DNA of 64,000 bases from Hypericibacter terrae (GTDB taxonomy: Bacteria; Pseudomonadota; Alphaproteobacteria; Dongiales; Dongiaceae): NCBI RefSeq assembly GCF_008728855.1, contig NZ_CP042906.1, positions 1,860,001 through 1,924,000 of the forward strand, read 5' to 3'. A model generated the notes under the pieces. It searched no databases. It was not told where the DNA came from and was given only the letters and a program-made list of their open reading frames with translations. Below are positions 3,731 through 34,996 of this stretch, piece after piece. The position numbers and the translations under genes were made by a program. How positions within the stretch are numbered: position 1 is the stretch's first letter; each line of letters begins with the position of its first letter.

Positions 3731-5818
3731 GTGTCGACCGACGCCAAGGGCCAGGTCACCAAATTCACCTACGACGCGCTGGGGCGGGTGCTGACCAAGA
3801 CCTCGCTCTTTGGCACGCCCCAGGCGGCGACCACCACCAACACTTACGACGAGGCGCGCGCCACCTTCTTCAATGTGGGCTACATCACCACCGCCGCCAA
3901 TGCGGCGGCGACCCTCCGCTACAACTACGACCAGGCCGGCCATCTGAAGAGCCAGGATTACGTGATTGCCAGCACGACCTACACGATCACCAACGGCTTC
4001 GACGCCGGGGACCGGCTGCTCTGGCGGCAATATCCGGACGGCGACAGCGTCGGCTCGGCGGGCAGCCCCTTCCTCTACGATTCCGCCGGGCGCCTCAAAT
4101 CCATCCCCGGCGTCATCACCGACACGGCCTATAACGCGCTGGGCCAGGTTACGACCCTGACCCGCGCCAACGGGGTGACGACGACCTATGGCTACCAGGC
4201 CTCCCGCCGATGGCTCACCGACATCGATACGCTTGCCGGCGCCACCGTGTTGCAGGACATCAACTACGGCCATGACGCGGCCGGCCGCATCACCGGCACC
4301 ACCTCGAGCATCACGGGCGAGAGCTGGACCTACGGCTATGACGACATGGACCGGCTGCTGAGCGCCGACAATGTCAACAACAACGCGCTCGACCAGAGCT
4401 TCACCTACGACACCGTCGGCAATCTCTCCACGAACTCCTTGATCGGGACCTATACTTACCCGGCGACAGGATCGCCGAGACCCCATGCCGTGACGGCGAC
4501 GCCGCTGGGCTCCTATGGCTACGACGCCAATGGCAGCATGACCACGGCCGCGGGCGACACGCTCGCCTACGACGGCGAGAACCGTCTGGTCTCGGTCAAC
4601 GGCGTTCAGTTCGTCTATGGCCCCGACGGGGCGCGGCTGAAGAAGATCGCCGGCGCCACCACCACGATCTGTCTGGGCGCCGACATCGAGATCGTCGGCA
4701 CGACCGAGACCAAGTATCTGCCGGGCGGCGCGAGACGCGTCGGCCTCAGCACCACCACCTGGGTCCATCGTGACAACCTGACTTCGTTCCGTGTCGAGAG
4801 TGACGGCACCGGCGCCGTCGCCTGGCGTGCCAATTATCGGCCCTATGGCGAGCGGCTTGTCACTGTCGCCGGTGTCACCGAGAGCAAGGGCTTCATCGGC
4901 GAACGCCATGACGACGAGACGGGGCTGCTCTATCTCAATGCCCGCTACTACGACCCCGTGCTGGCCCGCTTCATCCAGGCCGACCCATCGGACCCCAGCC
5001 AGCCTGGTGTCGGGCCCAATCGCTATACCTATGCCGGTGGCAATCCGATCGGTGCGCTGGATCCTTCGGGGCTCGTCGGCGTGCCATTGCCTTCTCAGAA
5101 CTTCGTCTACCCGGCCGGCGGGCCGCGTGTGCAGATCGAGGTTAATATCCCTGCTCTCAGTATTGGACCTTACATTCCTTACAATAGTGGATGGGGCTAT
5201 CTCGAGCCGGCGCTGAATGTGGCTCAGTTCGCGCTGCAGCCCTATATCGATGTCTACGAGAATTTTTTCGTAGGTCCTTTCCAAACCGCCCTGACCACGT
5301 TTCTAGAATCGCCACTGGGTGATTTGGGTCTCTATGCTTCGCTTCAGGGTATGGGCCCTCCTGGCACGATCATCGGGGGACTCGGTGAGGTTGGAGTGAG
5401 CGGGCTGCGCACACTCGCTGGGATCGGCAAGACCGGCACCGCTCTTCCCGCAGAGAGCACAGCGGTTCGCGGACTTACCGGCGAGTTCTACAGCGTGGCA
5501 TTTGAGACGAAGCTCAGCCCGACGTCATATCCGGGCGTTTCGCGGGGTGCGCATTTCCAAGAAGCAAACGAATCTCTTTTGAAGGCGATGGAATGGGACC
5601 CGGATTTTACTCTGGACATGCAAAGTTTGGGGGTTAACCTTGAAAGGACGCCGATGGGACTCGCTCCACGAACCTCGCCCGCTGGCTTTACATGGCACCA
5701 CGCACCAGAGCCCGGCGTGATGCAACTCGTGCCAAGATCACAACACGCGCCAGGGTCCATCTTCCAGGATGCCCTGCACCCGGATGGCAGAGGGGGTTAT
5801 TCTATATGGGGCGAGTAG
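3731..5818 (+). CDS. RHS/YD-repeat protein with C-terminal WHH-type nuclease toxin, 5'-truncated
   Basis: The reading frame encodes YD repeats (YDALGRV, YDSAGRL, YGYDDMDRL), an RHS core end (NARYYDPVLARFIQADPSDP, YTYAGGNP, DPSGL), and then a variable tail of about 250 residues. The tail ends in TWHHAPEPGVMQLVPRSQH, the pattern of WHH nucleases of the HNH/endonuclease VII superfamily found in polymorphic toxins. The core is nearly identical to that at 7859-9190, but the tails are unrelated. The gene has no N-terminal part: it starts inside the repeats at a junction with a gspD fragment, and the GTG at 3731 lacks a good ribosome site. Expression and export are therefore doubtful. Base composition falls in the tail, as expected for a transferred module. 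Confidence 0.85.
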   Translation: MSTDAKGQVTKFTYDALGRVLTKTSLFGTPQAATTTNTYDEARATFFNVGYITTAANAAATLRYNYDQAGHLKSQDYVIASTTYTITNGFDAGDRLLWRQYPDGDSVGSAGSPFLYDSAGRLKSIPGVITDTAYNALGQVTTLTRANGVTTTYGYQASRRWLTDIDTLAGATVLQDINYGHDAAGRITGTTSSITGESWTYGYDDMDRLLSADNVNNNALDQSFTYDTVGNLSTNSLIGTYTYPATGSPRPHAVTATPLGSYGYDANGSMTTAAGDTLAYDGENRLVSVNGVQFVYGPDGARLKKIAGATTTICLGADIEIVGTTETKYLPGGARRVGLSTTTWVHRDNLTSFRVESDGTGAVAWRANYRPYGERLVTVAGVTESKGFIGERHDDETGLLYLNARYYDPVLARFIQADPSDPSQPGVGPNRYTYAGGNPIGALDPSGLVGVPLPSQNFVYPAGGPRVQIEVNIPALSIGPYIPYNSGWGYLEPALNVAQFALQPYIDVYENFFVGPFQTALTTFLESPLGDLGLYASLQGMGPPGTIIGGLGEVGVSGLRTLAGIGKTGTALPAESTAVRGLTGEFYSVAFETKLSPTSYPGVSRGAHFQEANESLLKAMEWDPDFTLDMQSLGVNLERTPMGLAPRTSPAGFTWHHAPEPGVMQLVPRSQHAPGSIFQDALHPDGRGGYSIWGE

Positions 5819-21856: not shown

Positions 21857-23044
21857 TCAGTTCGGCGTGAAGGTCACATGGAGCGAGGTCGGTGCCCGGA
21901 ACTCCCAGCCGCGGAATTGCGGCGGCCGGTCGGGCACCAGGGCCAGATCGGGGAGCCGCTGCAGGAGAAAACGCAGCAGCGAGATCACGAGACGCTGGGC
22001 GAACCAGCGTCCGGCGCAGAAATGCGATCCGAAGCCATAGGCCGCATGCCCGGTCTCGGTCCGGTGGATATCGAACCGATCCGGGTCGCGATAGCGGGCC
22101 TCGTCGCGGCAGGCCGAGGAAATGACCGAGGCGACCGGCGCGTCTGCCGGAATGGCGACCCCGCCCAGCTCCATGTCCCGGGTGGCGCGGCGCATCTGGG
22201 TGCCGATGGGCGCCACCCAGCGCAAGCCTTCGTCGGCCGCTTTGGGCAGCAGCGCGTCGAAGTCCTTCATCAGCGCCGCATATTGGGCAGGGTCGGACAG
22301 CAGCGCCACCAGCGTCGAGGCGGCGCCATGGCCGGGTTCCTGCATGCCGCCCAGGAGCGCGATCTTGATGGAGGGAAGCAGGAAGGCGCGCGGGCGGGTC
22401 TGGCCCGGCGGCATGCCGTCATGGAGCATATGCGAGATGGCCGAGCCGTCGGGCTCGCGCTCGAGCCGCTCGAAGATCGGAACGATGGCGGCGTCGACCT
22501 CCTTGTTGATCGGATCGGAAATCGCGAGCTTCGCCGGATCGTTCTCGTAATTGGCGGCACCGATGGCGAGGCCATGGAACCAGCGCAGCAGCGTCTCGGC
22601 ATCGACATGGCCGAAGCCCAGCGAGCGGGCGAGGCAGAGGCTCGAGACCGGCTCGAAATAATCGGCGATGAGATTGGCGTGACCGCGCGGGGCGAGGCGG
22701 TCGAGATAGTCCTCGATGATCGGATTGGCCAGCCCATCGATATAGTCGGCGACGGTGCGCGGCTTGTATTTCGTGTCGAAGCCCCGGCGCAGCTCGCCAT
22801 GGACCGGGCCGTCGCTGGTCAGGATGGTCGGCTTGCCCATGGAGCGCTCGACCGGCGAGCTCGGTACCTCGGCCCCGAACAGGCCGGTATTCTTGCTGAC
22901 GAACTCCACATCCTGCCAACGGGTCACGAACCAGACATTGGCGGCCGGGACCCAGGCGACCGGCGCCTCGCGCCGCAGCCGGGCGAAGATCGGGTAGGGG
23001 TCCTCGTCGAGCGCCTCGACGGTGATCTGATCGGCGAAGGCCAT
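21857..23044 (-). CDS. Cytochrome P450
   Basis: A soluble bacterial P450 of 395 residues. The haem-binding loop is YGFGSHFCAGRWFA with the axial cysteine at 343; the ExxR helix is seen as EGLRW, followed by the R-containing MRRATRD meander. The usual I-helix (A/G)Gx(D/E)T motif is degenerate (LLGGMQEPGHGAAS), lacking the acid-threonine pair, which may alter proton delivery. It needs a ferredoxin and reductase, which are encoded at 32492-34062. It is separated from the upstream APC permease by a strong terminator, so it probably has its own promoter or relies on readthrough. Substrate unknown. Confidence 0.9.
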   Translation of the reverse strand: MAFADQITVEALDEDPYPIFARLRREAPVAWVPAANVWFVTRWQDVEFVSKNTGLFGAEVPSSPVERSMGKPTILTSDGPVHGELRRGFDTKYKPRTVADYIDGLANPIIEDYLDRLAPRGHANLIADYFEPVSSLCLARSLGFGHVDAETLLRWFHGLAIGAANYENDPAKLAISDPINKEVDAAIVPIFERLEREPDGSAISHMLHDGMPPGQTRPRAFLLPSIKIALLGGMQEPGHGAASTLVALLSDPAQYAALMKDFDALLPKAADEGLRWVAPIGTQMRRATRDMELGGVAIPADAPVASVISSACRDEARYRDPDRFDIHRTETGHAAYGFGSHFCAGRWFAQRLVISLLRFLLQRLPDLALVPDRPPQFRGWEFRAPTSLHVTFTPN

Positions 23045-23136: not shown

Positions 23137-24600
23137 CTATTCACCCGATTGATTGGCGCCGAGCCGGGCAAAGCGCGCCGCCGAGCTCTGCTTGAGCCTG
23201 GCGGCCGCGATGATGCCGAGCACGGCCGCGACCGGCACGAGGATCGGCAGGCCGATGGCCAGGGCCGGCTGGGCGCCGGTGAGCGCGTCGAAATGAATCA
23301 CCACCAGCACCGCGATGATCGCCAGGAGCGCGCCGGCGGCCAACGGCGCCAGCATCGTCCTGAAGGTCGAGGACTCCAGTCCCCGCGAGCGCCCGAAGAA
23401 GGCGATGACGGAGAAGGACGCCAACGCCATCAGCACGATGACGCTCAAGGTCGCGACGTTGGTCAGCCAGGTGAAGAGCGCCAGGACCGGATCCTGGCCG
23501 GTGACGACGAAGATGGCCAGCACGATCACGGCCAGGATCGTCTGCAGGACAGACCCCAGATGCGGGCTCTGATGGGTGGCATGGGTCTTGCTGAGCCCCA
23601 CCGGCAGCAGGCCCTCGCGGCCGAGCACATAGAAGTAGCGGGCAGCCGCATTGTGGAAGGCGAGGAGTGCGGCAAAGACGCTCGAGATCATGAGCAGGCT
23701 CATGATGGTGGTCAGCGCCGAGTTGGCATACTGGTCCGAAAGGCCGAACACGAAGCTGGTCGGGTCCTGCAGGCCCTGCAATGTCGGCAGCAGCTTGTCC
23801 GGGCCGGTGGCGAGGACCATGCACCAGGTCGAGAGGGTGTAGAAGACGCCGATCAGCAGCACCGAGAGATAGGTCGCGCGCGGGACGGTCCGCTCGGGAT
23901 CGCGCGCCTCCTCGCTGTAGATCGTCGTCGCCTCGAAGCCCATGAAGGCCGCGAAGCAGAGCAGCATGCCGATGGTGGTCGAGCCGCTGAAGAAGGCATC
24001 GGGCGTGAAGCTGGTGAAGCCGATGCCCTCGGCGCCGCCCGCGCCCAGGATGGTGGCGTCGAGGATCAGGACCGCGATGTACTCGGCGATGACCAGCACT
24101 GCGAGCACCTTGGCCGAGAGGTCGATCTGCCGATAGCCGAGCACGGCGATGACCGCCATGGCGATGAGCGACCAGACCCACCAGGGCAGGTCGATACCGA
24201 CGATGCTCGACAAGGTTCCCGCCGTGACCGCGCCGAACAGGCCGAGGAGGCCGATTTGCATGGTGTTGTAGGCGAGGACGGCGATATAGGCGGCAGCGCC
24301 GCCGGCTATGCCGCCGAGGCCGCGCGAGGTGAAGGCGAAGAAGGAGCCGGCATTGGCGATATGCCGGGCCATCGTCGTATAGCCGACCGAGAACAGCAGC
24401 AGGATCAAGGTCACGACCAGCACGGCGGCCGGAACGCCCGGGCCGTTGCCGAACAGCATCGCGATCGGATAGCCGCCGGCGACTGCCGTCAGCGGTGCCG
24501 CGGCCGAAACCACGAAAAAGGTCACGGCGGCAACGCCGAGCACGTTGCGCCGGAGCCGGTCAGGTGACGTCCCGACCGAGGTTGTCGTCGATTGAGCCAT
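23137..24600 (-). CDS. APC-superfamily amino acid/amine permease
   Basis: An inner-membrane transporter of 487 residues with about twelve hydrophobic helices. The N-terminal block (NVLGVAAVTFFVVSAAAPLT) and the segment GFEATTIYSEEARDPERTVP are typical of APC-family permeases. The ATG at 24600 has AGGGGAGGA upstream; the frame stays open for another 850 bases but that part is the antisense of marR. It is transcribed divergently from marR, and a palindrome that matches the one before the catabolic operon lies between them, so it likely imports the substrate of that operon. Confidence 0.88.
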   Translation of the reverse strand: MAQSTTTSVGTSPDRLRRNVLGVAAVTFFVVSAAAPLTAVAGGYPIAMLFGNGPGVPAAVLVVTLILLLFSVGYTTMARHIANAGSFFAFTSRGLGGIAGGAAAYIAVLAYNTMQIGLLGLFGAVTAGTLSSIVGIDLPWWVWSLIAMAVIAVLGYRQIDLSAKVLAVLVIAEYIAVLILDATILGAGGAEGIGFTSFTPDAFFSGSTTIGMLLCFAAFMGFEATTIYSEEARDPERTVPRATYLSVLLIGVFYTLSTWCMVLATGPDKLLPTLQGLQDPTSFVFGLSDQYANSALTTIMSLLMISSVFAALLAFHNAAARYFYVLGREGLLPVGLSKTHATHQSPHLGSVLQTILAVIVLAIFVVTGQDPVLALFTWLTNVATLSVIVLMALASFSVIAFFGRSRGLESSTFRTMLAPLAAGALLAIIAVLVVIHFDALTGAQPALAIGLPILVPVAAVLGIIAAARLKQSSAARFARLGANQSGE

Positions 24601-24745
24601 GCTGTCCTCCCCTGACACGCACGAGGGGCCGAACGATCTCGGGTCCCCCGCCATCCTGTTGCGGCTCGGAAGAGGCCATCCGCCCCTCGGCCGGACTACA
24701 CGCTCCGGCATGGCCTCGCGGTCATGCACGGCGTGCTTTTCGTTC

Positions 24746-24762
24746 ATTCGATGTCGAACGAT
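24746..24762. promoter_or_regulatory. Putative MarR operator in the permease-marR gap
   Basis: ATTCGATGTCGAACGAT is an imperfect palindrome that differs at one base from the site at 25754-25770. It lies in the 298-base gap between the divergent permease and marR genes, which otherwise holds nothing recognisable, fitting joint control and autoregulation. Confidence 0.65.
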
Positions 24763-24898
24763 AATACAGAGGCTGAACCGGAGCAAGAGAGCCGTCGGGG
24801 CGGGCGGACCGCAAAAGACCGGGAATGTTTCGGCGCCGCTGTTTCGGTTTCGCCCGGCGGTGCTATAACCGGCGCCGACGCTCGATCGGGAGTTCGCC

Positions 24899-25507
24899 TT
24901 GACCAAGACACGCCGCATTGCAGCAAAGCCTGGCACTTCCTCGGGAGGCCGCGATGGGACAGCCGCGGCCAAGGATAAGAAGCCGCGGGGCCGGCGTTCG
25001 CAGAAGCCGCTGGCCGAGCTCCTGGGCGAGCGGCGGGTCGCCGGCCTCGGCATCAATCTCGACTCCATGGCGCTCGTCTCGAACATCCATCGCGCCTCGG
25101 GCTTCATCCGGCAGCATTTCGAGCGCAGCGTCCTGAAGGAGCCCGATCTCCACTGGTCGGCCTTCGTGGTGCTCTGGTGCCTCTGGATCTTCGGCGAGCT
25201 CGAGACGCGACGCCTGGCGATCGAAGCCGGCGTGGCGAAGAGCACGCTTTCCAGCATTCTCAACATGCTCGAGGGACGCAAGCTGCTGCGCCGGCGCACC
25301 AACGAGCTGGAGCGCCGCCTCGTCATCGTCAATCTGACGGCCGCCGGGACGGAGCTGATCAGCAAGCTGTTTCCGAAGTTCAACGCCGAGGAAACCCGGA
25401 TCGTCGCCAAGCTGACGGCGCGGCAGATGGAATCCGCGACCGATGCCATCCGCATGATTCTGGCGACGATCGGCGAGATGGACGGACCGGTCGGCGAGGA
25501 CGGCTAG
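24899..25507 (+). CDS. MarR-family transcriptional regulator
   Basis: A DNA-binding protein of 202 residues, with a basic N-terminal tail and a winged helix: LHWSAFVVLWCLWIFGELET, then the recognition part ETRRLAIEAGVAKSTLSSIL and the wing RRRTNELERRLVIVNLT. The frame begins with TTG at 24899; there is no earlier ATG, and the next ATG (25068) would still keep the DNA-binding domain. It stands between the permease and a catabolic operon with hpaE and hpaD homologues, the position of HpaR-type MarR repressors of homoprotocatechuate degradation. The ligand is unknown. Confidence 0.85.
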   Translation: MTKTRRIAAKPGTSSGGRDGTAAAKDKKPRGRRSQKPLAELLGERRVAGLGINLDSMALVSNIHRASGFIRQHFERSVLKEPDLHWSAFVVLWCLWIFGELETRRLAIEAGVAKSTLSSILNMLEGRKLLRRRTNELERRLVIVNLTAAGTELISKLFPKFNAEETRIVAKLTARQMESATDAIRMILATIGEMDGPVGEDG

Positions 25508-25540
25508 ACGGAGGAGGGCTAGCGACTGGAAAGAACTCAC

Positions 25541-25669
25541 CCCCTTCCCTTGCGGGAGGGGGTAGGGGGAGGGGTGTCGGGGGATCGCGGGCATTGAGAA
25601 TCACACCGCCTCCTCCCCGCGTCGCCTCGCTGGTGCTCGGCGACGCTGCCCCTCCCGCAAGGGAAGGGG
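25541..25669. repeat. Small inverted-repeat element between marR and hpaE
   Basis: Perfect inverted repeats of 21 bases at 25541-25561 and 25649-25669, each itself a near-palindrome around CTTGCGGGAGG, enclose about 87 GC-rich bases without a gene. The layout is that of a MITE or paired REP element. It separates marR from the operon promoter and could fold into a large hairpin in a readthrough transcript. Confidence 0.8.
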
Positions 25670-25753
25670 CTGTAGTTTTGTGTATTTACTCTCAGACATA
25701 GAAGTCTGAAGAGACGGCGCCCCAGCTTGACTCAAGGGTGCCTTTACCGGATT

Positions 25754-25770
25754 ATTCGATATCGAACGAT
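25754..25770. promoter_or_regulatory. Putative MarR operator in front of the catabolic operon
   Basis: ATTCGATATCGAACGAT contains the perfect palindrome TTCGATATCGAA and lies 15 bases upstream of the hpaE start. Its near-identical partner at 24746-24762 supports a shared regulator, most simply the MarR protein encoded between the two sites. Confidence 0.68.
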
Positions 25771-25784
25771 TTTTGGAGCCGGAC

Positions 25785-27248
25785 ATGTCTGCGCGGGTCG
25801 AGGGCGTGGAGGTCGATACCCGACATTGGATCGGCGGGAGGCGCGTCGACAGCGCCGATCGGTTCGAGAGCATCTCGCCGATCGACGAGACGCCGATCGC
25901 GGCGCTGGCGCGCGCCGGTGCTGCCGAGGTCGATCAAGCCGTGACGGCGGCGGGCCAGGCCTTCAAGACCTGGTCGCGCACCAGCCGCGAGGAGCGGGCG
26001 CGGCTTCTCCATCGCATCGCCGATATCGTCGAAGCCAAGGTCGAATCCCTGGCGGTGGTCGAGACGCGCGACAACGGCTCGCTGCTGCGTTCGCACCGCC
26101 GCGGGGTGATGCCGCGCGTCGCGATGAATTTCCGCTTCTTCGCCGATTGGCTGCTGCAGCTCGATCACGCCGATTTCGAGGTCCGCCATCACCGCAACCA
26201 TGTGAGCTGGGATCCGAGCGGCGTCGCGGCCATCATCACGCCCTGGAACGCGCCCCTCATGCTCGGCACCTGGCGCATCGCGCCGGCGCTCGCGGCCGGC
26301 TGCACCGTCGTCTACAAGCCGCCGGAATGGGCGCCGCTGACGGCCTCGCTCCTGGCCGACATCACGGCCGAGGCGGGGCTGCCGGAGGGCGTCTTCAATG
26401 TGGTGCAGGGGATCGGGCGCGAGGCGGGCGCCGCCCTGGCGCGCCATCCGAAAATCCGGCGCCTCAGCTTCACCGGTTCGGTCGCGACCGCGAAGCAGAT
26501 CGCGACCTCGGCGGCCGAGAACCTGGTGCCGCTCTCCTTCGAGCTCGGCGGCAAGTCGCCTTACCTGGTGTTCGCCGACGCCGACCTCGATCTCGCCGTG
26601 AATACGGCCGTCGGCCAATATGACAATGCCGGCCAGGTCTGTCTGGCGGGCACCCGCATCCTGGTCGAGGAGAGCATCCGCGCGCGCTTCCTCGAGGCCT
26701 TCATGGCCAAGGCCAGGGCGATCCGCCAGGGCGATCCGCGCGACGAGACCACCGATATCGGCCCGCAGATCAGCCGCCCGCATTTCGAGCGGGTCGACGG
26801 CTATGTGCGGCGGGCCATCGCGTCGGGACTGAAACCCGCGCTCGGCGGCGGCCCGAACAAGGATCTCGGTGGCCTCTATTACCGGCCGACCTTGTTCGTC
26901 GATCCGCCGGCCGGTTCGGAAATCCTGCGCGAAGAGGTCTTCGGGCCGGTTCTCTGTCTGCAATCCTTCCGCGACGAGCCGGAAGGCATCGCCATGGCCA
27001 ACGACACCGAATATGGTCTGGCGGCGATCGTGATGACCGGTGACGAGAAGCGCGCCGAGCGGGTCACGTCGCAGGTCTCGGCCGGCCTGGTCTGGAACAA
27101 TTGCTTCTTTGTGCGCGATCTGCGCCAGGCCTTCGGCGGCAACGGTAAATCCGGCATCGGCCGCGAGGGCGGAACCTGGTCGTTCGACTTCTATTGCGAC
27201 GTCAAGAACAGCGTCTATGCGCCGAATGGCTGGGGGAAGAATGGGTGA
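25785..27248 (+). CDS. hpaE: Aldehyde dehydrogenase, HpaE-like
   Basis: An NAD(P)-dependent aldehyde dehydrogenase of 487 residues with the general base in FELGGKSPY (Glu253) and the catalytic cysteine in GQVCLAGTR (Cys286). The C-terminal block VRDLRQAFGGNGKSGIGREG is close to that of 5-carboxymethyl-2-hydroxymuconate semialdehyde dehydrogenase. In the homoprotocatechuate pathway this enzyme oxidises the ring-cleavage product. The ATG at 25785 follows GGAG; an in-frame TTG at 25773 is less likely. It is the first gene of a nine-gene operon and overlaps the next by 8 bases. Other semialdehydes are possible substrates. Confidence 0.82.
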   Translation: MSARVEGVEVDTRHWIGGRRVDSADRFESISPIDETPIAALARAGAAEVDQAVTAAGQAFKTWSRTSREERARLLHRIADIVEAKVESLAVVETRDNGSLLRSHRRGVMPRVAMNFRFFADWLLQLDHADFEVRHHRNHVSWDPSGVAAIITPWNAPLMLGTWRIAPALAAGCTVVYKPPEWAPLTASLLADITAEAGLPEGVFNVVQGIGREAGAALARHPKIRRLSFTGSVATAKQIATSAAENLVPLSFELGGKSPYLVFADADLDLAVNTAVGQYDNAGQVCLAGTRILVEESIRARFLEAFMAKARAIRQGDPRDETTDIGPQISRPHFERVDGYVRRAIASGLKPALGGGPNKDLGGLYYRPTLFVDPPAGSEILREEVFGPVLCLQSFRDEPEGIAMANDTEYGLAAIVMTGDEKRAERVTSQVSAGLVWNNCFFVRDLRQAFGGNGKSGIGREGGTWSFDFYCDVKNSVYAPNGWGKNG

Positions 27249-28137
27249 GGTTGTCGCCTGTGGGCTGATCGCCCATGTTCCTACGGTCATGCTGCCGCTG
27301 GAGATTCGCCACGAGCTCAATAACGGCCAGGATTTCAGCGTGGTCGACGGGTTCAACCGGCTGCGCAGCGAGGTGCTGTCGAACCTCGGCCACGATCTCG
27401 TGATCGTGTTCGACTCCCACTGGTTCACGACCGTCGAGTTCGTGATCAGCGGCCATGCCCATCGCAGCGGCAAATTCACCTCGGACGAGCTGCCGCGCGG
27501 CATGTCGCAGGTGCCCTATGATTTTCCGGGCGACCCGGCGTTCGCGAAGGCCGCCGCCGCGAACGGGCGCAAGCATGGCACCTGGCTCACCGCGATCGAC
27601 GACCCCTGTCTGCCGATCCATTATGCGACCGTCAACCCGCTGAAATATCTCCAGCGCGGCAAGGAAGCCTGGGTGTCCGTAAGCTGCTGCCAGACGGCGG
27701 AGAGCGAGGACTTCCTGCGCGTCGGCCGGGCGCTGCGCGAGACCATCGCGGGCCTCGATCGCCGCGTGGTGCTGCTGGCGTCGGGCGCCATGAGCCACAA
27801 ATTCTGGCCGCTGCAGAAGCTGCGGGAGCATGAGGCGGCGGGGATCGAGCATATCTTCAGCCCGGCCCATTCGGCGGCCGACCTGGAGCGCATCGAGTGG
27901 ATGAAGCAGGGCGACCATGCCCGCATCCTGCGGACCATGCCGGAGTTTCTTCGCTTCAAGCCCGAGGCGAATTTCGGCCATTATCTGATGATGGCGGCGG
28001 CCCTGGGCGAGGAGGATTTCACCGCGCCGGGCCGGCTCTTCAGCGCCTATGAGAATGCGATCGGCACCGGCCAGGTCCATGTCTGGTTCGATCGGCCGAA
28101 AGAAGGCTGGAACGCCCGGCGCCACGCGGCGGAATGA
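27241..28137 (+). CDS. hpaD: Class III extradiol ring-cleavage dioxygenase, HpaD/HpcB-like
   Basis: A LigB-superfamily dioxygenase of 298 residues. The expected metal ligands are seen as His12 (IAHVP), His60 (FDSHW) and Glu235 (MPEF), and the motif LASGAMSHKFWP carries the conserved catalytic histidine. The sequence follows 3,4-dihydroxyphenylacetate 2,3-dioxygenase of the HpcB type (TSDELP, YDFPGDP). It would open a catechol ring in the meta position with Fe2+ and O2. It overlaps the dehydrogenase gene upstream, indicating translational coupling. The true catechol may differ from homoprotocatechuate. Confidence 0.82.
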   Translation: MGEVVACGLIAHVPTVMLPLEIRHELNNGQDFSVVDGFNRLRSEVLSNLGHDLVIVFDSHWFTTVEFVISGHAHRSGKFTSDELPRGMSQVPYDFPGDPAFAKAAAANGRKHGTWLTAIDDPCLPIHYATVNPLKYLQRGKEAWVSVSCCQTAESEDFLRVGRALRETIAGLDRRVVLLASGAMSHKFWPLQKLREHEAAGIEHIFSPAHSAADLERIEWMKQGDHARILRTMPEFLRFKPEANFGHYLMMAAALGEEDFTAPGRLFSAYENAIGTGQVHVWFDRPKEGWNARRHAAE

Positions 28138-28159
28138 GGCGGATCGAGGGGAGGGGGAC

Positions 28160-29017
28160 GTGACTCGGGAATTTCGTCGGATTCTGCTGGGGGGCGCCGT
28201 GGTTGAGACCGAACGCCAGGGCGAGGAGCTCGTGGCGCGCGACGGCCGGCGCATCGCGGTCGCCGATGCGATCCATCTGCCGCCGGTGGTGCCGACCAAG
28301 GTGATCGCGGTCCATCTCAACCATGTCAGCCGGGTCAAGGAATTCCAGATCAAGCTGTCCGCGACCCCGACCTATTTCCAGAAGCCGACCTCGGCGCTCA
28401 ATTCCCATCGCGGCGACGTGGTGCGGCCCCGGAACTGCAAATGGCTGAATTACGAGGGCGAGGTCGGCATCGTCATCGGCCGGCGCTGCCGCAATGTCAG
28501 CCAGGCGGAAGCGGGCGACTACATCGCGGGCTACACGGTCGCCAACGATTTCGGCCTGCATGATTTCCGCGATACCGACGCGGGCTCGATGCTGCGCGTC
28601 AAGGGCAGCGACACGCTCTGTCCGCTGGGGCCCGGCCTCGTCACGGGCTGGGACTTCCGCAACAAATATCTGCGCACCTATGTCAACGGCCAGATCAAGC
28701 AGGACGGCAACACGGCCGAGATGACCTGGGACATGCATTATCTGGTGGCCGACATCGCCCGCAATATCACGCTGGAGCCGGGCGATGTGCTGCTCTCAGG
28801 CACCCCCGCCAATTCGCGGCCCGTCAAACCGGGCGATCTGGTCGAGGTCGAAGTGGAGGGGCTCGGGCGGCTGTCGAACCGGATCGTCGAAGGGCCGCTG
28901 CCGATCCGTACCGAACTCGGCGCCCAGCCGTCGGAATCCGAGGAAGTGCTTTCGACCGCGCTCGGCGGCGAATGGGAGTTCCGCGGCATCCGCCCGCCCA
29001 AGAAGCCGGGCGCCTGA
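28160..29017 (+). CDS. Fumarylacetoacetate hydrolase-family protein (HpaG-like)
   Basis: A single FAH domain protein of 285 residues. The fold motifs are present: HVSRVKEFQ, the metal-ligand region NYEGEVGIVIGRRC with its acidic residues, YTVANDFGLHDFR, and LLSGTPANSRPVKPGD. In the homoprotocatechuate pathway HpaG decarboxylates and isomerises the ring-fission product; other members hydrolyse acylpyruvates. The start is GTG at 28160 with GAGGGGAGGGGG before it. HpaG proteins are often two-domain; this is a one-domain form, so the exact reaction is open. Confidence 0.75.
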   Translation: MTREFRRILLGGAVVETERQGEELVARDGRRIAVADAIHLPPVVPTKVIAVHLNHVSRVKEFQIKLSATPTYFQKPTSALNSHRGDVVRPRNCKWLNYEGEVGIVIGRRCRNVSQAEAGDYIAGYTVANDFGLHDFRDTDAGSMLRVKGSDTLCPLGPGLVTGWDFRNKYLRTYVNGQIKQDGNTAEMTWDMHYLVADIARNITLEPGDVLLSGTPANSRPVKPGDLVEVEVEGLGRLSNRIVEGPLPIRTELGAQPSESEEVLSTALGGEWEFRGIRPPKKPGA

Positions 29018-29028
29018 GGTCATCCCCC

Positions 29029-29829
29029 ATGCCGAAGCAGCAAGGCTTCTTCTACCCCCGCAGCGCCACCGGCCAGGCCTCGCTCTTGCCGCCGCCGCCC
29101 TGGTTCTATGCCGGCGACCTCCTGACCATCGAATACCGGACCGATCCGGCGCGGGTGGCCGAGCTCCTGCCGGCCCCCTTGACCCTGGCGCCCGAGGACC
29201 CCGGCGCCGTGGCGCTGATCTGGGCCGACTGGCAGTCCTGCGGCGGGACCAAGGCCGAGCTGCTCGATCCCGTCCGCGCGCAATATAAGGAGTGCTTCGC
29301 GGTCGTGCGCTGCGCCTTCGAGGGCCGGGTCTATTCGCGCTGCCTCTATATCTGGGTCGACAAGGATTTCGCCCTGCTGCGCGGCATCCATCAGGGCTAT
29401 CCGAAGAAGTTCGGCTCGATCCATATGACGCGTCCGCATCCCTTCGCGCCGGCGCCGCAGGTGGCGGCGGGCGGCACCTTCGGGGCCACGCTGGCCGCCA
29501 ACGATCGCCGGCTGGCGGAGACGGTCATCACGCTCAGCGAGCCCACCGAGCGCAACGGCTTCGTCAACGGCCATCCGATGGCCCATCACCGCTGGCTGCC
29601 GGCGATCGACGGCAAGGGCGATGTCCATGCCGAGCTGATCGAATCCGGTGGCGCCAAGTTCGAGGGGGCCAAGCCCTGGCGCGCCAGGGTCGATCATTTC
29701 GAGATGTTCGATTCGCCGACCGAGGAGCTGAGCCGTCTCGAGGTGAAAGAGATGATCGGCGCCTATTACCGCCAGATCGGCGTGGTCTGGAATGGCGGCA
29801 AGTCGCTGGTGCCGTCGATCGGCCGTTAA
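29029..29829 (+). CDS. Acetoacetate decarboxylase-family protein
   Basis: A protein of 266 residues of the ADC fold. The motif GYPKKFGSI contains the lysine pair in which the first lysine forms a Schiff base and the second lowers its pKa in true decarboxylases. The family also includes aldolase-dehydratases, so the reaction could be decarboxylation of a beta-keto acid or a related Schiff-base step on a pathway intermediate. It lies 11 bases after the FAH-family gene and is part of the same operon. Such a gene is not a standard member of hpa clusters. Confidence 0.78.
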   Translation: MPKQQGFFYPRSATGQASLLPPPPWFYAGDLLTIEYRTDPARVAELLPAPLTLAPEDPGAVALIWADWQSCGGTKAELLDPVRAQYKECFAVVRCAFEGRVYSRCLYIWVDKDFALLRGIHQGYPKKFGSIHMTRPHPFAPAPQVAAGGTFGATLAANDRRLAETVITLSEPTERNGFVNGHPMAHHRWLPAIDGKGDVHAELIESGGAKFEGAKPWRARVDHFEMFDSPTEELSRLEVKEMIGAYYRQIGVVWNGGKSLVPSIGR

Positions 29830-29858: not shown

Positions 29859-31121
29859 ATGACCAGTTTCAAGCCCACCGATGACGGCCATGCCGATCTC
29901 TCGGACCATGACGCGTTCCTGGAAGGCGCGCCACACAACACCTTTGCCCGGATGCGCCGCGAGGATCCGCTGGCCTGGAGCGAGATGAAGGGGGCCAAGG
30001 GCTTCTGGTCGATCACGCGTCACCAGGATGTGCTCGACCTCAACCGGAGTTTCGAGCTGCTGAGCTCGGCCCGCGGCATCCGGATGGAGGACCAGACCTA
30101 TGAGGAATATCTGGCGCGCCGCACCTTCCAGGAGACCGACCCGCCCGAGCATTCCCGGACGCGGGTCCTCGTCAGCAAGGCTTTCTCCAAGCCGGTAGTG
30201 GCGCTGTTCGAGGAGCAGATCCGCCTGATCTGCGATTCCATCCTCGACGACGTGATGGAGCGGCGCAGCTTCGAAGCCGTCAAGGATGTGGCGCGGCAAT
30301 TGCCGATGCGCATGCTGGGCCAGATCCTGGGCACGCCCGAGGCCGATCTCGACTGGCTGGTGGAGAAGGGCGACCAGCTCATCGCCAATACCGATCCGGA
30401 ATTCACCGAGCATGTGCTCGACAAGGCCGATACCGACGCCTATCGCTTCATGCCGTTCCGCTCGCCGGCGGGCGCCGATCTCTACGACTACGCCAAGAAG
30501 CTGATGGAGGACAAGCAGCGCCGCGGCGACACCTCCGGCGTGCTGCATCTGATCCTGCAGCCGGACGCCCATGGCAATGTCATTTCGGAGCTGGAGTTTC
30601 GGAACTTCTTCTGCCTGCTGGTCGCGGCCGGCAACGACACCACACGCTATTCGATCGCGGCCTCGCTTTATGCGCTCGCCAACCGGCCCGAGTTGATGAA
30701 GCAGCTGCAGGCGGGCGAGGGCAATATCTGGGAGACGGCGCCCGACGAATTCATCCGCTGGGCCTCGCCGACCATGCATTTCCGCCGCACCGCGACCCGC
30801 GATTTCGAGATGCATGGCAAGACGGTCAAGGCGGGCGACAAGGTCATCCTCTGGTTCGTCTCCGCCAATCGCGACGAGCAGACTTTCGAGAACCCCTTCG
30901 AGCTCAATCTGCTCCGCACCCCCAACCGCCATGTCGCCTTCGGTCAGGGGGGCCCGCATGTCTGCCTCGGCATGTGGCTGGCGCGGCTCGAGGTCCGGAT
31001 CCTGCTGCAGGAGATGGTGAAGCGGATGACGCGCATCGAGCAGACCGGTCCGCATGAATATCTGCGCTCCAATTTCATCGGCGGCATCAAGCGGCTGCCG
31101 GTGCGGATCGCTTTGCACTAA
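29859..31121 (+). CDS. Cytochrome P450 of the catabolic operon
   Basis: A soluble P450 of 420 residues. It has an I-helix AAGNDTTRYS, the ExxR-type segment DEFIRWASP, and the haem loop FGQGGPHVCLGMWLA with the axial Cys369; the loop has one extra residue compared with FGxGxHxCxG. It lies directly upstream of a glutamine-synthetase-like gene, its ferredoxin and its reductase, forming a complete three-component monooxygenase. The ATG at 29859 follows GCGGG; no stronger ribosome site is seen. It is probably a hydroxylase for the pathway substrate. Confidence 0.9.
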   Translation: MTSFKPTDDGHADLSDHDAFLEGAPHNTFARMRREDPLAWSEMKGAKGFWSITRHQDVLDLNRSFELLSSARGIRMEDQTYEEYLARRTFQETDPPEHSRTRVLVSKAFSKPVVALFEEQIRLICDSILDDVMERRSFEAVKDVARQLPMRMLGQILGTPEADLDWLVEKGDQLIANTDPEFTEHVLDKADTDAYRFMPFRSPAGADLYDYAKKLMEDKQRRGDTSGVLHLILQPDAHGNVISELEFRNFFCLLVAAGNDTTRYSIAASLYALANRPELMKQLQAGEGNIWETAPDEFIRWASPTMHFRRTATRDFEMHGKTVKAGDKVILWFVSANRDEQTFENPFELNLLRTPNRHVAFGQGGPHVCLGMWLARLEVRILLQEMVKRMTRIEQTGPHEYLRSNFIGGIKRLPVRIALH

Positions 31122-31147: not shown

Positions 31148-32437
31148 ATGCCTTCGGGCGAACGGCTTCGTCTTCTGTTTTGCGACCATCTGAGCCTGGC
31201 ACGCGGGAAGTATCTCCCCGCCAGCAAGATCGGCAGTGGCTCCTCGCGCTTCTGCCAGGGCACCTTCGCGGTCACCTATGACAAGGAGATGCAGCCGGCA
31301 CCCGGCGGCAAGATGCTCGAAGGCCTGCCCGACATGGACGCGGTCTATAGGGGCGACGATATCCGCCAGGGCTGGGAGCCGCACACCAAGGTGGTGATGG
31401 CCGACCTCTACGAGACCAGCGGCAATCCGCTTGGGCTCTGCGGCCGCAGCCTGCTGAAGCGCACGGTCAGGGAATGGCAGGCGCTGGGCTTGACGCCCAA
31501 GGTCGGGCTCGAGCTCGAGGCCTTCGCCTTCCAGCGCGATGAGAACGGCAAGCTGGTGCCCTACCACACGCCGGGCGCCTATGTGTACAGCACGGGACGC
31601 CTCGCCGACCCTTTGCGCTTCACCGACGCCATCTGGAACAAGGCGCATGAGGTGGGGTTCCCGATCGACGGTTTCACCACGGAATATGACGCGCCGCAGT
31701 TCGAGTTCACCCTGACCTATGACGATGCGGTCAAGGCGGTGGACGACATCTTCCTGTTCCGCCTGATGGCGCGCGAGATCGCGCTCGACCACGGCATTAT
31801 CCTGACCTTCATGCCGAAGCCGATCCCGACGCTGGGCGGCAGCGGGCTCCATGTCAATTTCAGCTTCAACGACAAGCAGGGCAAGAACGTCATCGGCGAG
31901 ACCGCCCATGTCGAGACGCTGAGCGACCTGACGAAGGGCTGCATCGCCGGATTGATGCATCACCATCGCGGCATGGCGGGGCTGGTGGCGCCGACGGTCA
32001 ATTCCTACGAGCGGCTGAAGCCGGCGAGCCTCTCCGGATATTGGTGCAACTGGGGCATCGACCATCGCGGCGTCACCACCCGGCTCTCGACCGAGGGCGG
32101 CAAGAAGGCCCGCATCGAGCATCGCATGGGCGATGCCGCCGCCAATCCCTACACCCTGGTCGCGACCGTGCTGCAGGCGGCCAAGCTGGGCTTCACCGGC
32201 AAATACAATCTGCCGGCGGCCGAGACGGCGGATTGCATCGAACGGCATGACGCCACGATCGGCGTGCCCGACAATCTGGCCGAGGCGCTCAAGGCCCTGG
32301 CCGAGGACAAGAAGCTGGGCGCCGCCGTGGGCGAGCTGCTGGTCGGTAACCATATCGGCATCAAGGAAGGCGAAATCCGGAGGGTCGCGGCGCTCGAAGG
32401 CGATGCGGTCCGCGATTATTACATCTATTATGTCTGA
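31148..32437 (+). CDS. Glutamine-synthetase-family ligase (gamma-glutamyl-amide synthetase type)
   Basis: A protein of 429 residues with the GS catalytic core: GLELEAFAF (metal site glutamates), the histidine loop GGSGLHVNFSF, and the C-terminal arginine region RIEHRMGDAAANPYTLVA, which differs from housekeeping GlnA. The length is shorter than GlnA and fits the GlnA-like group that includes PuuA and IpuC, which join glutamate to amines. Its place between a P450 and its ferredoxin is unusual for proteobacteria and recalls mycobacterial morpholine/piperidine clusters. The amine substrate is unknown. It probably activates or protects an amine before oxidation. Confidence 0.85.
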   Translation: MPSGERLRLLFCDHLSLARGKYLPASKIGSGSSRFCQGTFAVTYDKEMQPAPGGKMLEGLPDMDAVYRGDDIRQGWEPHTKVVMADLYETSGNPLGLCGRSLLKRTVREWQALGLTPKVGLELEAFAFQRDENGKLVPYHTPGAYVYSTGRLADPLRFTDAIWNKAHEVGFPIDGFTTEYDAPQFEFTLTYDDAVKAVDDIFLFRLMAREIALDHGIILTFMPKPIPTLGGSGLHVNFSFNDKQGKNVIGETAHVETLSDLTKGCIAGLMHHHRGMAGLVAPTVNSYERLKPASLSGYWCNWGIDHRGVTTRLSTEGGKKARIEHRMGDAAANPYTLVATVLQAAKLGFTGKYNLPAAETADCIERHDATIGVPDNLAEALKALAEDKKLGAAVGELLVGNHIGIKEGEIRRVAALEGDAVRDYYIYYV

Positions 32438-32491: not shown

Positions 32492-32809
32492 TTGCCGAAA
32501 GTAACCTGGATCCTGAAGGACGGCCGGAAGATCACGGCCGACGTGAAGACCGGCCATAACCTGATGGAAGCGGCCGTCGCCAACAATGTTCCCAACGTGA
32601 TCGGCGAATGCGGCGGCTGCCTCTCCTGCGCCACCTGCCATGTCTATGTCGACGAGGCCTGGTACGACAAGGCCGGCAAGCCCGACGACATGGAGCGCGA
32701 CATGCTGGAGATCACTGCGGCCGAGCGGCTTCCCTTGAGCCGGCTCAGCTGCCAGATCCAGGCGACCGACGCGCTGGACGGCATCATCCTCCATGTGCCT
32801 GAGATCTGA
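32492..32809 (+). CDS. [2Fe-2S] ferredoxin, adrenodoxin type
   Basis: An electron carrier of 105 residues with the cluster ligands Cys40, Cys46, Cys49 (motif ECGGCLSCATCHVYV) and Cys87 (LSCQI). An additional cysteine at 43 is not a ligand in the family and is unusual. The start is TTG at 32492 preceded by AGGAGTGG. It passes electrons from the adjacent reductase to the P450, and perhaps also to the second P450 at 21857. Confidence 0.93.
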   Translation: MPKVTWILKDGRKITADVKTGHNLMEAAVANNVPNVIGECGGCLSCATCHVYVDEAWYDKAGKPDDMERDMLEITAAERLPLSRLSCQIQATDALDGIILHVPEI

Positions 32810-32838: not shown

Positions 32839-34062
32839 ATGGCGGATCCGATCATCGTCATCGGCGCCGGACAGGCCGGCGCCTCGCTGGTCGCGAAGCT
32901 CCGGGCGCTCGGCTATGGCGGATCCCTGCTGCTGCTGGGCGACGAGCCCGTGCTTCCCTATCAGCGTCCGCCGCTGTCCAAGAAATACATGTCGGGCGAG
33001 TTCACCGTCGACCGCCTGCTGATCCGCGCGCCCAGCTGGTATGAGGAGCAGAAGGTCGAGACGCGGCTGTCCGCGCCGGTCTCGGCAATCCTTCCGCGCG
33101 ACCGGCTCGTGGCGCTGTCCGACGGTTCGATGCTCCGTTACAGCAAGCTCGCGCTGACCACCGGCTCACGACCGCGAACCTTGCCGGACGCCGTCGGCGG
33201 CAATCTCGCCGGCGTCTTCACGGTGCGGGGCCTGGCCGATGCCGATAGCATCATGCCGATATTCCTGCCGGGCAGGAAATTGCTGGTGATCGGCGGCGGC
33301 TATATCGGGCTCGAAGCGGCCGCCGTCGCCTCGACGAAGGGCCTCGACGTCACGCTCATCGAGATGGCCGACCGCATCCTGCAGCGAGTGGCGGCGCCGA
33401 TGACCTCCGATTATTTCCGGGCGCTCCATACGCGCCATGGCGTCACGATCCGCGAAGCGACCGGCCTCGACGCGCTGGTCGGCAAGGAAGGGCGGCTCGT
33501 CGGCGCCAGGCTCAAGGACGGCACTCGGCTTGACGCCGATCTCGCCATCGTCGGCATCGGCATTCACCCCAATGACGGTCTGGCGGCTGATGCAGGTCTC
33601 ATTGTCGAGAACGGAATCCATGTCGACGGCCAATGCCGGACCTCGGATCCCGACATCTTCGCCGCCGGGGATTGTGCGAGTTTCTCCTGGCGCGGGGTCC
33701 GGACAAGGCTCGAATCCGTGCAGAACGCGGTCGAGCAGGCCGAGCATGCCGCGGCGGCCATGCTCGGCGCCGCGGGCGACTACGACCCGGTACCCTGGTT
33801 CTGGTCCGACCAGTATGACGTGAAGCTGCAGATCGCCGGCCTCAATCGCGGCTATACCGACACGGTCTTGCGGCCCGGCAAGCGCGAGCTCAGCCAGTCG
33901 GTCTGGTATTATCGGGGGGAGGAACTGATCGCGGTCGATGCGATGAACGACGCGCTGGCCTATGGCATCGGCAAGAAGGTGCTGGAGGCGCGGCGCTCGA
34001 TCCCGAAGGCCGCGGTCGGCGATCCCTCGGTCGAGTTGAAAACCTGGCTCACGGCCTCGTAA
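32839..34062 (+). CDS. NAD(P)H-ferredoxin reductase (putidaredoxin reductase type)
   Basis: A flavoprotein of 407 residues. It has the FAD-binding GAGQAGASLVAKLRALGY near the N-terminus, the NAD-binding VIGGGYIGLEAAAVA near residue 155, and the second FAD motif DIFAAGDCASF. The C-terminal domain (PWFWSDQYDVKLQIAG) is typical of putidaredoxin/rhodocoxin reductases. It completes the P450 electron chain with the ferredoxin 29 bases upstream. Confidence 0.93.
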   Translation: MADPIIVIGAGQAGASLVAKLRALGYGGSLLLLGDEPVLPYQRPPLSKKYMSGEFTVDRLLIRAPSWYEEQKVETRLSAPVSAILPRDRLVALSDGSMLRYSKLALTTGSRPRTLPDAVGGNLAGVFTVRGLADADSIMPIFLPGRKLLVIGGGYIGLEAAAVASTKGLDVTLIEMADRILQRVAAPMTSDYFRALHTRHGVTIREATGLDALVGKEGRLVGARLKDGTRLDADLAIVGIGIHPNDGLAADAGLIVENGIHVDGQCRTSDPDIFAAGDCASFSWRGVRTRLESVQNAVEQAEHAAAAMLGAAGDYDPVPWFWSDQYDVKLQIAGLNRGYTDTVLRPGKRELSQSVWYYRGEELIAVDAMNDALAYGIGKKVLEARRSIPKAAVGDPSVELKTWLTAS

Positions 34063-34105: not shown

Positions 34106-34996
34106 ATGAAGAAGGCTCCGGTCGTCACCCAGCTTGCCTCCGGCCTCGGCTGGCCCGAAGGCCCCGCGCCGCTGCCCGACGGCCGCATCCTGTTCGTCGA
34201 AAGCTATCGCAGCCAGATCTCGGTCTGGACGCCGGGCGCCGGGGTCGGACGGTTCGCCGATGTCGGCGGCGGGCCCAATGCGGTTCTCGCCGCACCGGAC
34301 GGCTATCTCTATGTGACGCAGAATGGCGGCAAGATCGGACCCTGGCGCGCGGCCCAGCAGCGCCCGCCCTCGATCCAGCGCATCACGCCCCAGGGCAAAG
34401 TGGAGATTCTCGCCACGCAGGTGGAGGGGCATAAACTGCTGGCGCCCAACGACCTCGCCTTCGGCCCCGATGGCTGGCTCTATTTCACCGATCCGGGCGG
34501 GGCCTATGATCCCGTCGGCAAGTCGAATGTCGGCTTCATCTGCGCATTGAAACCGGACGGCACCGGTGTCCTGCTCGAGGAATTGCCGCCGGTCTTCCCC
34601 AACGGCATCTGCGTCGACCGCGATGGCAGCCTGGTCTGGGTCGAATCCTACAGCCGCGCCGTGAAGCGCCGCAGCCCCGCCGGCAAGGTGACCGAGCTTT
34701 GTATCCTGCCGCCGCCGGCCGTGCCCGACGGGTTCAAGATCGCGGCCAATGGCGATCTCTATGTCACGGGCGTCGATTGCGGCGGCATCGACATCGCGCG
34801 CAAGGACGGCAGCTATGTCGAGCGCATGATGATCGGCCTGATTCCGACCAACTGCGCCTTCGTCGGCAGCACGCTCTATGTCACCGATGGCGGCAAGCCC
34901 GGATTGACCACGGCGCCCTCGATGGGCGGCGCGCTCTGGCGTGTCGAGCTCGACGGTGTCGAAGGATTGCCGCTATTCCCGGGTCATATCGGTTGA
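34106..34996 (+). CDS. SMP-30/gluconolactonase-family hydrolase
   Basis: A six-bladed beta-propeller protein of 296 residues. Metal-binding residues of the family are visible in WPEGPAPLPDG (glutamate near the start), APNDLAFGPDGWLYFTD and NGICVDRDGSLVWV. It likely opens a lactone formed in the pathway with help of a divalent metal. It is the last plus-strand gene of the operon, 43 bases after the reductase gene, and faces the convergent kinase gene. The specific lactone is unknown. Confidence 0.82.
   Translation: MKKAPVVTQLASGLGWPEGPAPLPDGRILFVESYRSQISVWTPGAGVGRFADVGGGPNAVLAAPDGYLYVTQNGGKIGPWRAAQQRPPSIQRITPQGKVEILATQVEGHKLLAPNDLAFGPDGWLYFTDPGGAYDPVGKSNVGFICALKPDGTGVLLEELPPVFPNGICVDRDGSLVWVESYSRAVKRRSPAGKVTELCILPPPAVPDGFKIAANGDLYVTGVDCGGIDIARKDGSYVERMMIGLIPTNCAFVGSTLYVTDGGKPGLTTAPSMGGALWRVELDGVEGLPLFPGHIG

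Follow-up and report, generated by a model that had tools for sequence, protein, structure and literature searches.

Two 20-bp dyads in the DNA of Hypericibacter terrae analysed here (a stretch of 64,000 nt, hereafter the window) are very probably the operators of the MarR-family regulator encoded between them, which, as judged from their sequence and placement, would use them to repress a permease operon and an hpaE-led catabolic operon by promoter occlusion until a pathway compound releases it. In the proposed mechanism, one MarR dimer would occupy each dyad when inducer is absent, with operator 2 covering the -10 element and probable start point of the hpaE-ligB-faah-adc-P450-GS-fdx-fdR promoter and operator 1 covering the -10 element of the leftward permease-P450 promoter, and RNA polymerase would thus be kept off both. 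Import and catabolism would then be switched on together when a compound of the pathway, probably an aromatic amine, an amino acid or an aryl acid, releases the repressor. We infer the repressive sign of this control, the inducer, the permease promoter and the presence of the P450 gene on the permease transcript. The features of the locus, in window coordinates, are:

21857..23044, minus strand: cytochrome P450 downstream of the permease (PF00067; same place in 10 of 11 related loci)
23137..24600, minus strand: amino-acid permease of the APC superfamily (PF00324, PF13520)
24743..24762, plus strand: candidate operator 1, TTCATTCGATGTCGAACGAT, 20-bp imperfect dyad (from sequence; same site in 12 of 12 loci)
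24758..24786, minus strand: proposed permease promoter TTGCTC-17 bp-TATCGT (by inspection; -10 overlaps operator 1)
24864..24869, plus strand: proposed marR -10 element TATAAC, preceded by TGC (by inspection; about 100 bp downstream of operator 1)
24899..25507, plus strand: marR, HpaR-like MarR-family regulator of 202 aa with a TTG start (PF01047; TIGR02337; 7el2)
25727..25755, plus strand: predicted hpaE-operon promoter TTGACT-17 bp-GATTAT (sigma-70-like promoter scan; -10 overlaps operator 2)
25751..25770, plus strand: candidate operator 2, ATTATTCGATATCGAACGAT, 20-bp imperfect dyad with a perfect 12-bp core (from sequence; same site in 12 of 12 loci)
25785..27248, plus strand: HpaE-like aldehyde dehydrogenase, first gene of the catabolic operon (TIGR02299)
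27244..28137, plus strand: HpaD-like extradiol ring-cleavage dioxygenase, LigB (PF02900; TIGR02298)
28136..29017, plus strand: HpaG-like protein of the fumarylacetoacetate-hydrolase family, start approximate (PF01557; solved homologue 1gtt)
29026..29829, plus strand: acetoacetate-decarboxylase-like protein (PF06314)
29871..31121, plus strand: cytochrome P450, CYP125/124-like (PF00067; solved homologues)
31148..32437, plus strand: glutamine-synthetase-like ligase (PF00120)
32492..32809, plus strand: 2Fe-2S ferredoxin (PF00111)
32839..34062, plus strand: ferredoxin reductase (PF07992, PF14759)
34106..34996, plus strand: SMP-30/gluconolactonase-like protein (PF08450; operon membership uncertain)

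The original prediction held that two 17-mers one base apart flank marR, one in front of the divergent permease/marR pair and one just before hpaE, and both lie where it placed them: ATTCGATGTCGAACGAT at 24746-24762 on the plus strand, in the gap that separates the diverging starts of permease and marR, and ATTCGATATCGAACGAT at 25754-25770 on the plus strand, ending 14 nt upstream of the hpaE start codon (ATG, 25785), the two being identical except for the 8th base. Its further claim of a symmetric operator stands as regards a dyad shared by the permease and hpaE promoters and needs correction as regards length, since the conserved unit exceeds 17 bp and spans 20 bp (24743-24762 and 25751-25770). 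The 24 sites of 12 loci give the consensus ATCRTTCGAYRTCGAAYGAT, an imperfect dyad in which, single variants aside, only the central YR and the outer bases vary, and whose core here reads TTCGA-YR-TCGAA.

Eleven further genomes of the family encode a MarR orthologue (69-86% identity), and all 11, which also contain the cluster, keep both sites at the same positions. The layout common to these loci is P450-permease, divergent marR and hpaE-ligB-faah-adc-P450-GS-fdx-fdR, with the exceptions of L049, which is without the upstream P450, and L041, whose contig stops inside the second P450. When the 12 loci were aligned, the best window of the permease-marR region had 16 of 20 columns invariant vs at best 5 elsewhere, and that of the marR-hpaE region 15 of 20 vs at best 4. 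Among the matches listed, the degenerate 17-mer has two exact copies in each of the 12 genomes with this MarR, all at the locus, and none in the five family genomes without it, where for G003 and G005 the absence is judged from the best match shown for each (L067 and L066). One-mismatch matches in G013 and G014 overlap ORFs and were rejected as extra sites. In L044 (G009) we observed an additional operator-like site, GTTCGACGTCGAACGAT at 5374-5390, which lies 49 bp from operator 1 and could form a tandem operator.

The regulator itself contains the MarR winged-helix domain (PF01047, 32.7 bits vs a cut-off of 24.6) and matches MarR-family chains in the PDB, the nearest solved structure being HpaR (7el2); at 45.2 bits vs the 121.2 of the HpaR equivalog model TIGR02337, it is HpaR-like and outside HpaR by the curated cut-off. 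Like the invariant sites, the AKSTLS residues of the recognition helix do not vary, and we infer that the protein would bind the dyads on both sides of its gene as a dimer.

Similar dyads also accompany more distant regulators. A 57%-identical MarR is encoded in L090 and L091, contigs of MAGs labelled Candidatus Symbiobacter and Paceibacterota, and both have a 3-mismatch site a short distance before hpaE (equalled by 4 of 40,000 random sequences for L090 and 3 of 40,000 for L091). Between its permease and marR genes L091 additionally has a site with 4 mismatches (37 of 40,000), and its gene order is rearranged, with hpaE located on the far side of the permease instead of downstream of marR. 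A different MarR-family gene in G003, which is without the orthologous MarR, has the dyad ATCATTCGATGTCAAATGAT directly upstream (L067:1501-1520). The HpaR-like clusters of L106 and L109 have ATGATTTGATATCAAACTAG just before hpaB, and in these HpaB-first clusters, which also encode an HpaR-like MarR, the TTTGATATCAAA-cored dyads (L106:3603-3622, L109:3453-3472) might belong to a related operator code. Taken together, the sites of L090/L091, G003 and L106/L109 point to a MarR-type reader of such dyads. Separately, another MarR gene in G129 lies between two dyads of similar sequence, ATAGTTCCATATCGTACTAT and a copy with 3 mismatches (L025:1402-1421 and 1990-2009), giving the same two-site layout; the 54%-identical MarR paralogue of G006 (L050) has no operator-like site nearby.

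Since the sites, marR and the operon always occur together, co-occurrence alone would leave another DNA-binding protein possible, such as an IclR-type regulator encoded elsewhere that binds the sites while the neighbouring MarR has different DNA targets. The motif does resemble IclR-type operators of aromatic catabolism, as PcaR and PobR sites also contain a TTCGAT-like half-site. Nevertheless, we consider such a regulator improbable, because across the 12 loci no regulator gene other than marR was seen within the conserved cluster, because the second MarR gene of G003 has a near-identical dyad upstream and the site is kept beside the 57%-identical MarR of L090 and L091, and because no exact sites occur at other places in the genome.

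The positions of the dyads relative to the promoters are consistent with control by the adjacent MarR through occlusion. The hpaE promoter was the sole sigma-70-like match in a scan of 24500-25900, its TTGACT -35 element is kept in all aligned loci with slightly differing spacing, and it overlaps operator 2 (25727-25755 vs 25751-25770), an overlap that is kept in relatives and would place the operator across the -10 and probable start point. On the leftward side, the proposed permease -35 element (GCAAG on the plus strand), spaced 17 bp from the -10, is a block conserved in the 12 loci, and its core is among the few other conserved blocks of the permease-marR region. In related loci a TGCTATAA-type element is found just upstream of the marR start. 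These overlaps therefore make both operators well placed to control the permease and hpaE operons, and autoregulation of marR is uncertain, since a conserved TGCTATAA element of its own lies about 100 bp beyond operator 1.

Alternatively, MarR could bind both of these similar operators at once, looping the 1 kb of DNA between them, as has been proposed for the two HpaR sites in E. coli (cited in PMC6888825). We rank this arrangement low, as very improbable, because the spacing of the sites is not phased: relatives have 785 to 1,021 bp between them, without a constant helical phase, and in the rearranged L091 the sites are about 2.1 kb apart. Each operator, moreover, already overlaps its own predicted or proposed promoter.

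Rather than the many unrelated copies that would speak against the regulon originally predicted, a genome-wide scan (5,894,118 bases, one contig, with the window at 1860001-1924000) returned two exact copies, both at the locus. No one-mismatch match to the 17-mer motif occurs in the whole genome, the next-best match has 2 mismatches and lies in coding DNA, inside an ORF of 183 aa, and a backward control pattern gave 0 matches genome-wide. Within the window, a search allowing up to 3 mismatches returned the two sites plus site 2 on the opposite strand and nothing else, compared with 0.31 matches on average in shuffles of the window, and 0 of 40,000 trials with dinucleotide-matched random sequences equalled the observed match for each of the two intergenic regions. 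That two intergenic sequences merely resemble each other by chance or neutrally thus has a negligible probability, given these shuffle and random-sequence tests, the uniqueness of the sites in the genome and how strongly they are conserved in 12 species whose intergenic background has diverged.

Among the looser matches inspected in this genome, those at 477306, 1731895, 230384, 1997510, 2129425, 4107157 and 4789094 lie inside ORFs of 180-880 aa and were rejected as regulon sites, as was one at 2079197, which is outside ORFs yet has 5 mismatches to the 20-mer. A match at 4495651 has 3 mismatches, with only small ORFs nearby and no catabolic gene seen there. A mismatch-tolerant pattern search found no strong additional site elsewhere in this genome, and a text search of the literature for the motif returned unrelated matches only, mostly influenza primers.

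The circuit can be compared with three known MarR-type systems. As in the hpa-meta operon of E. coli W and Yersinia pseudotuberculosis, a MarR-family regulator lies beside hpaE/hpaD/hpaG-type genes, and HpaR represses via more than one operator, where here we have two candidate operators and would deduce repression from their placement. In Y. pseudotuberculosis these operators, one of them centred at -8, read TTAA-N4-TTAA (PMC7180172), unlike the TTCGA-YR-TCGAA found here, which is therefore not of the HpaR operator type. The regulator also differs from HpaR in its score (45 bits vs a cut-off of 121), and the operon differs from the HpaR-controlled one in having a P450, a ferredoxin, a reductase and a GS-like ligase. 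DesR of Sphingobium sp. SYK-6, a MarR-type repressor of vanillate/syringate catabolism that is released by pathway substrates (PMC6888825), is likewise from an alphaproteobacterium and has near-identical inverted repeats at several catabolic promoters, but its operators read GTTTGTGT[C/A]ACATAC, and its genes and effectors differ too. CouR of Rhodococcus jostii RHA1 is, according to PMC4737184, a MarR-type repressor of aromatic catabolism that a pathway intermediate frees from its operator; it differs in host, in pathway (p-hydroxycinnamate) and in ligand (p-coumaroyl-CoA).

The extent of the regulon was originally given as importer, regulator and nine enzymes. The importer and the hpaE operon hold up, control of marR is uncertain as noted, and the P450 at 21857-23044, which had been missed, likely belongs in the regulon through a permease operon that it appears to share. 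The SMP-30 gene, which had been counted in, had no match in the related loci L039-L049, L113 and L114, the last two of which include DNA beyond fdR.

The enzymes resemble the homoprotocatechuate meta-cleavage set, yet all fall below curated cut-offs (HpaE, 525 of 638 bits; HpaD_Fe, 142 of 316 bits), and a scan of the operon proteins found no HpaH hydratase or HpaI aldolase. In four relatives an additional gene, or the apparent place of one, lies between adc and P450. A full frame for a PLP decarboxylase was seen there in three (L043:6651-8099, L045:6499-7911, L048:9992-11422); a six-frame list of L044 holds no single full frame at this place, where a whole-genome search gave a full-length match at 66%. 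The closest solved homologue of the relatives' decarboxylase is DOPA decarboxylase (7xin, 3.3e-223), and in the genome studied here the only relative is 44% identical and lies outside the locus. The gene's presence in four clusters suggests aromatic amines as substrates. Because relatives' operons carry this decarboxylase, import and breakdown of an aromatic amino acid or amine is our guess for the inducer class, and we regard aromatic amino acids or amines as a fair guess. A broader reading, which we find possible and somewhat doubtful, is that the circuit may be the dedicated switch of an undescribed catecholamine-type pathway for aromatic amines, in which the importer, DOPA decarboxylase (in some species), the glutamine-synthetase-like ligase and two P450s would feed ring cleavage, controlled by a separate clade of HpaR-like MarR proteins that has an operator code of its own.

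As the site pair is kept in all 12 species with the genes, we regard the circuit as real and as ordinary local gene control; it appears to be a genuine MarR-type regulon with two operators, of a kind already known. For a MarR clade that is so far uncharacterised, it yields a defined operator of 20 bp and a compact regulon open to testing, and it links an importer and two P450s with an unusual operon for aromatic ring cleavage. The regulatory logic being standard, the interest lies more in the unusual pathway than in the switch, and the identity of the inducer would tell what these bacteria eat via the operon. Finally, between marR and hpaE the window contains a GC-rich inverted repeat (25538-25672) with 24-nt arms that are 96% complementary and 87 nt apart, and the marR-to-hpaE spacing, here and in G001, is about 150-200 bp longer than in other relatives.
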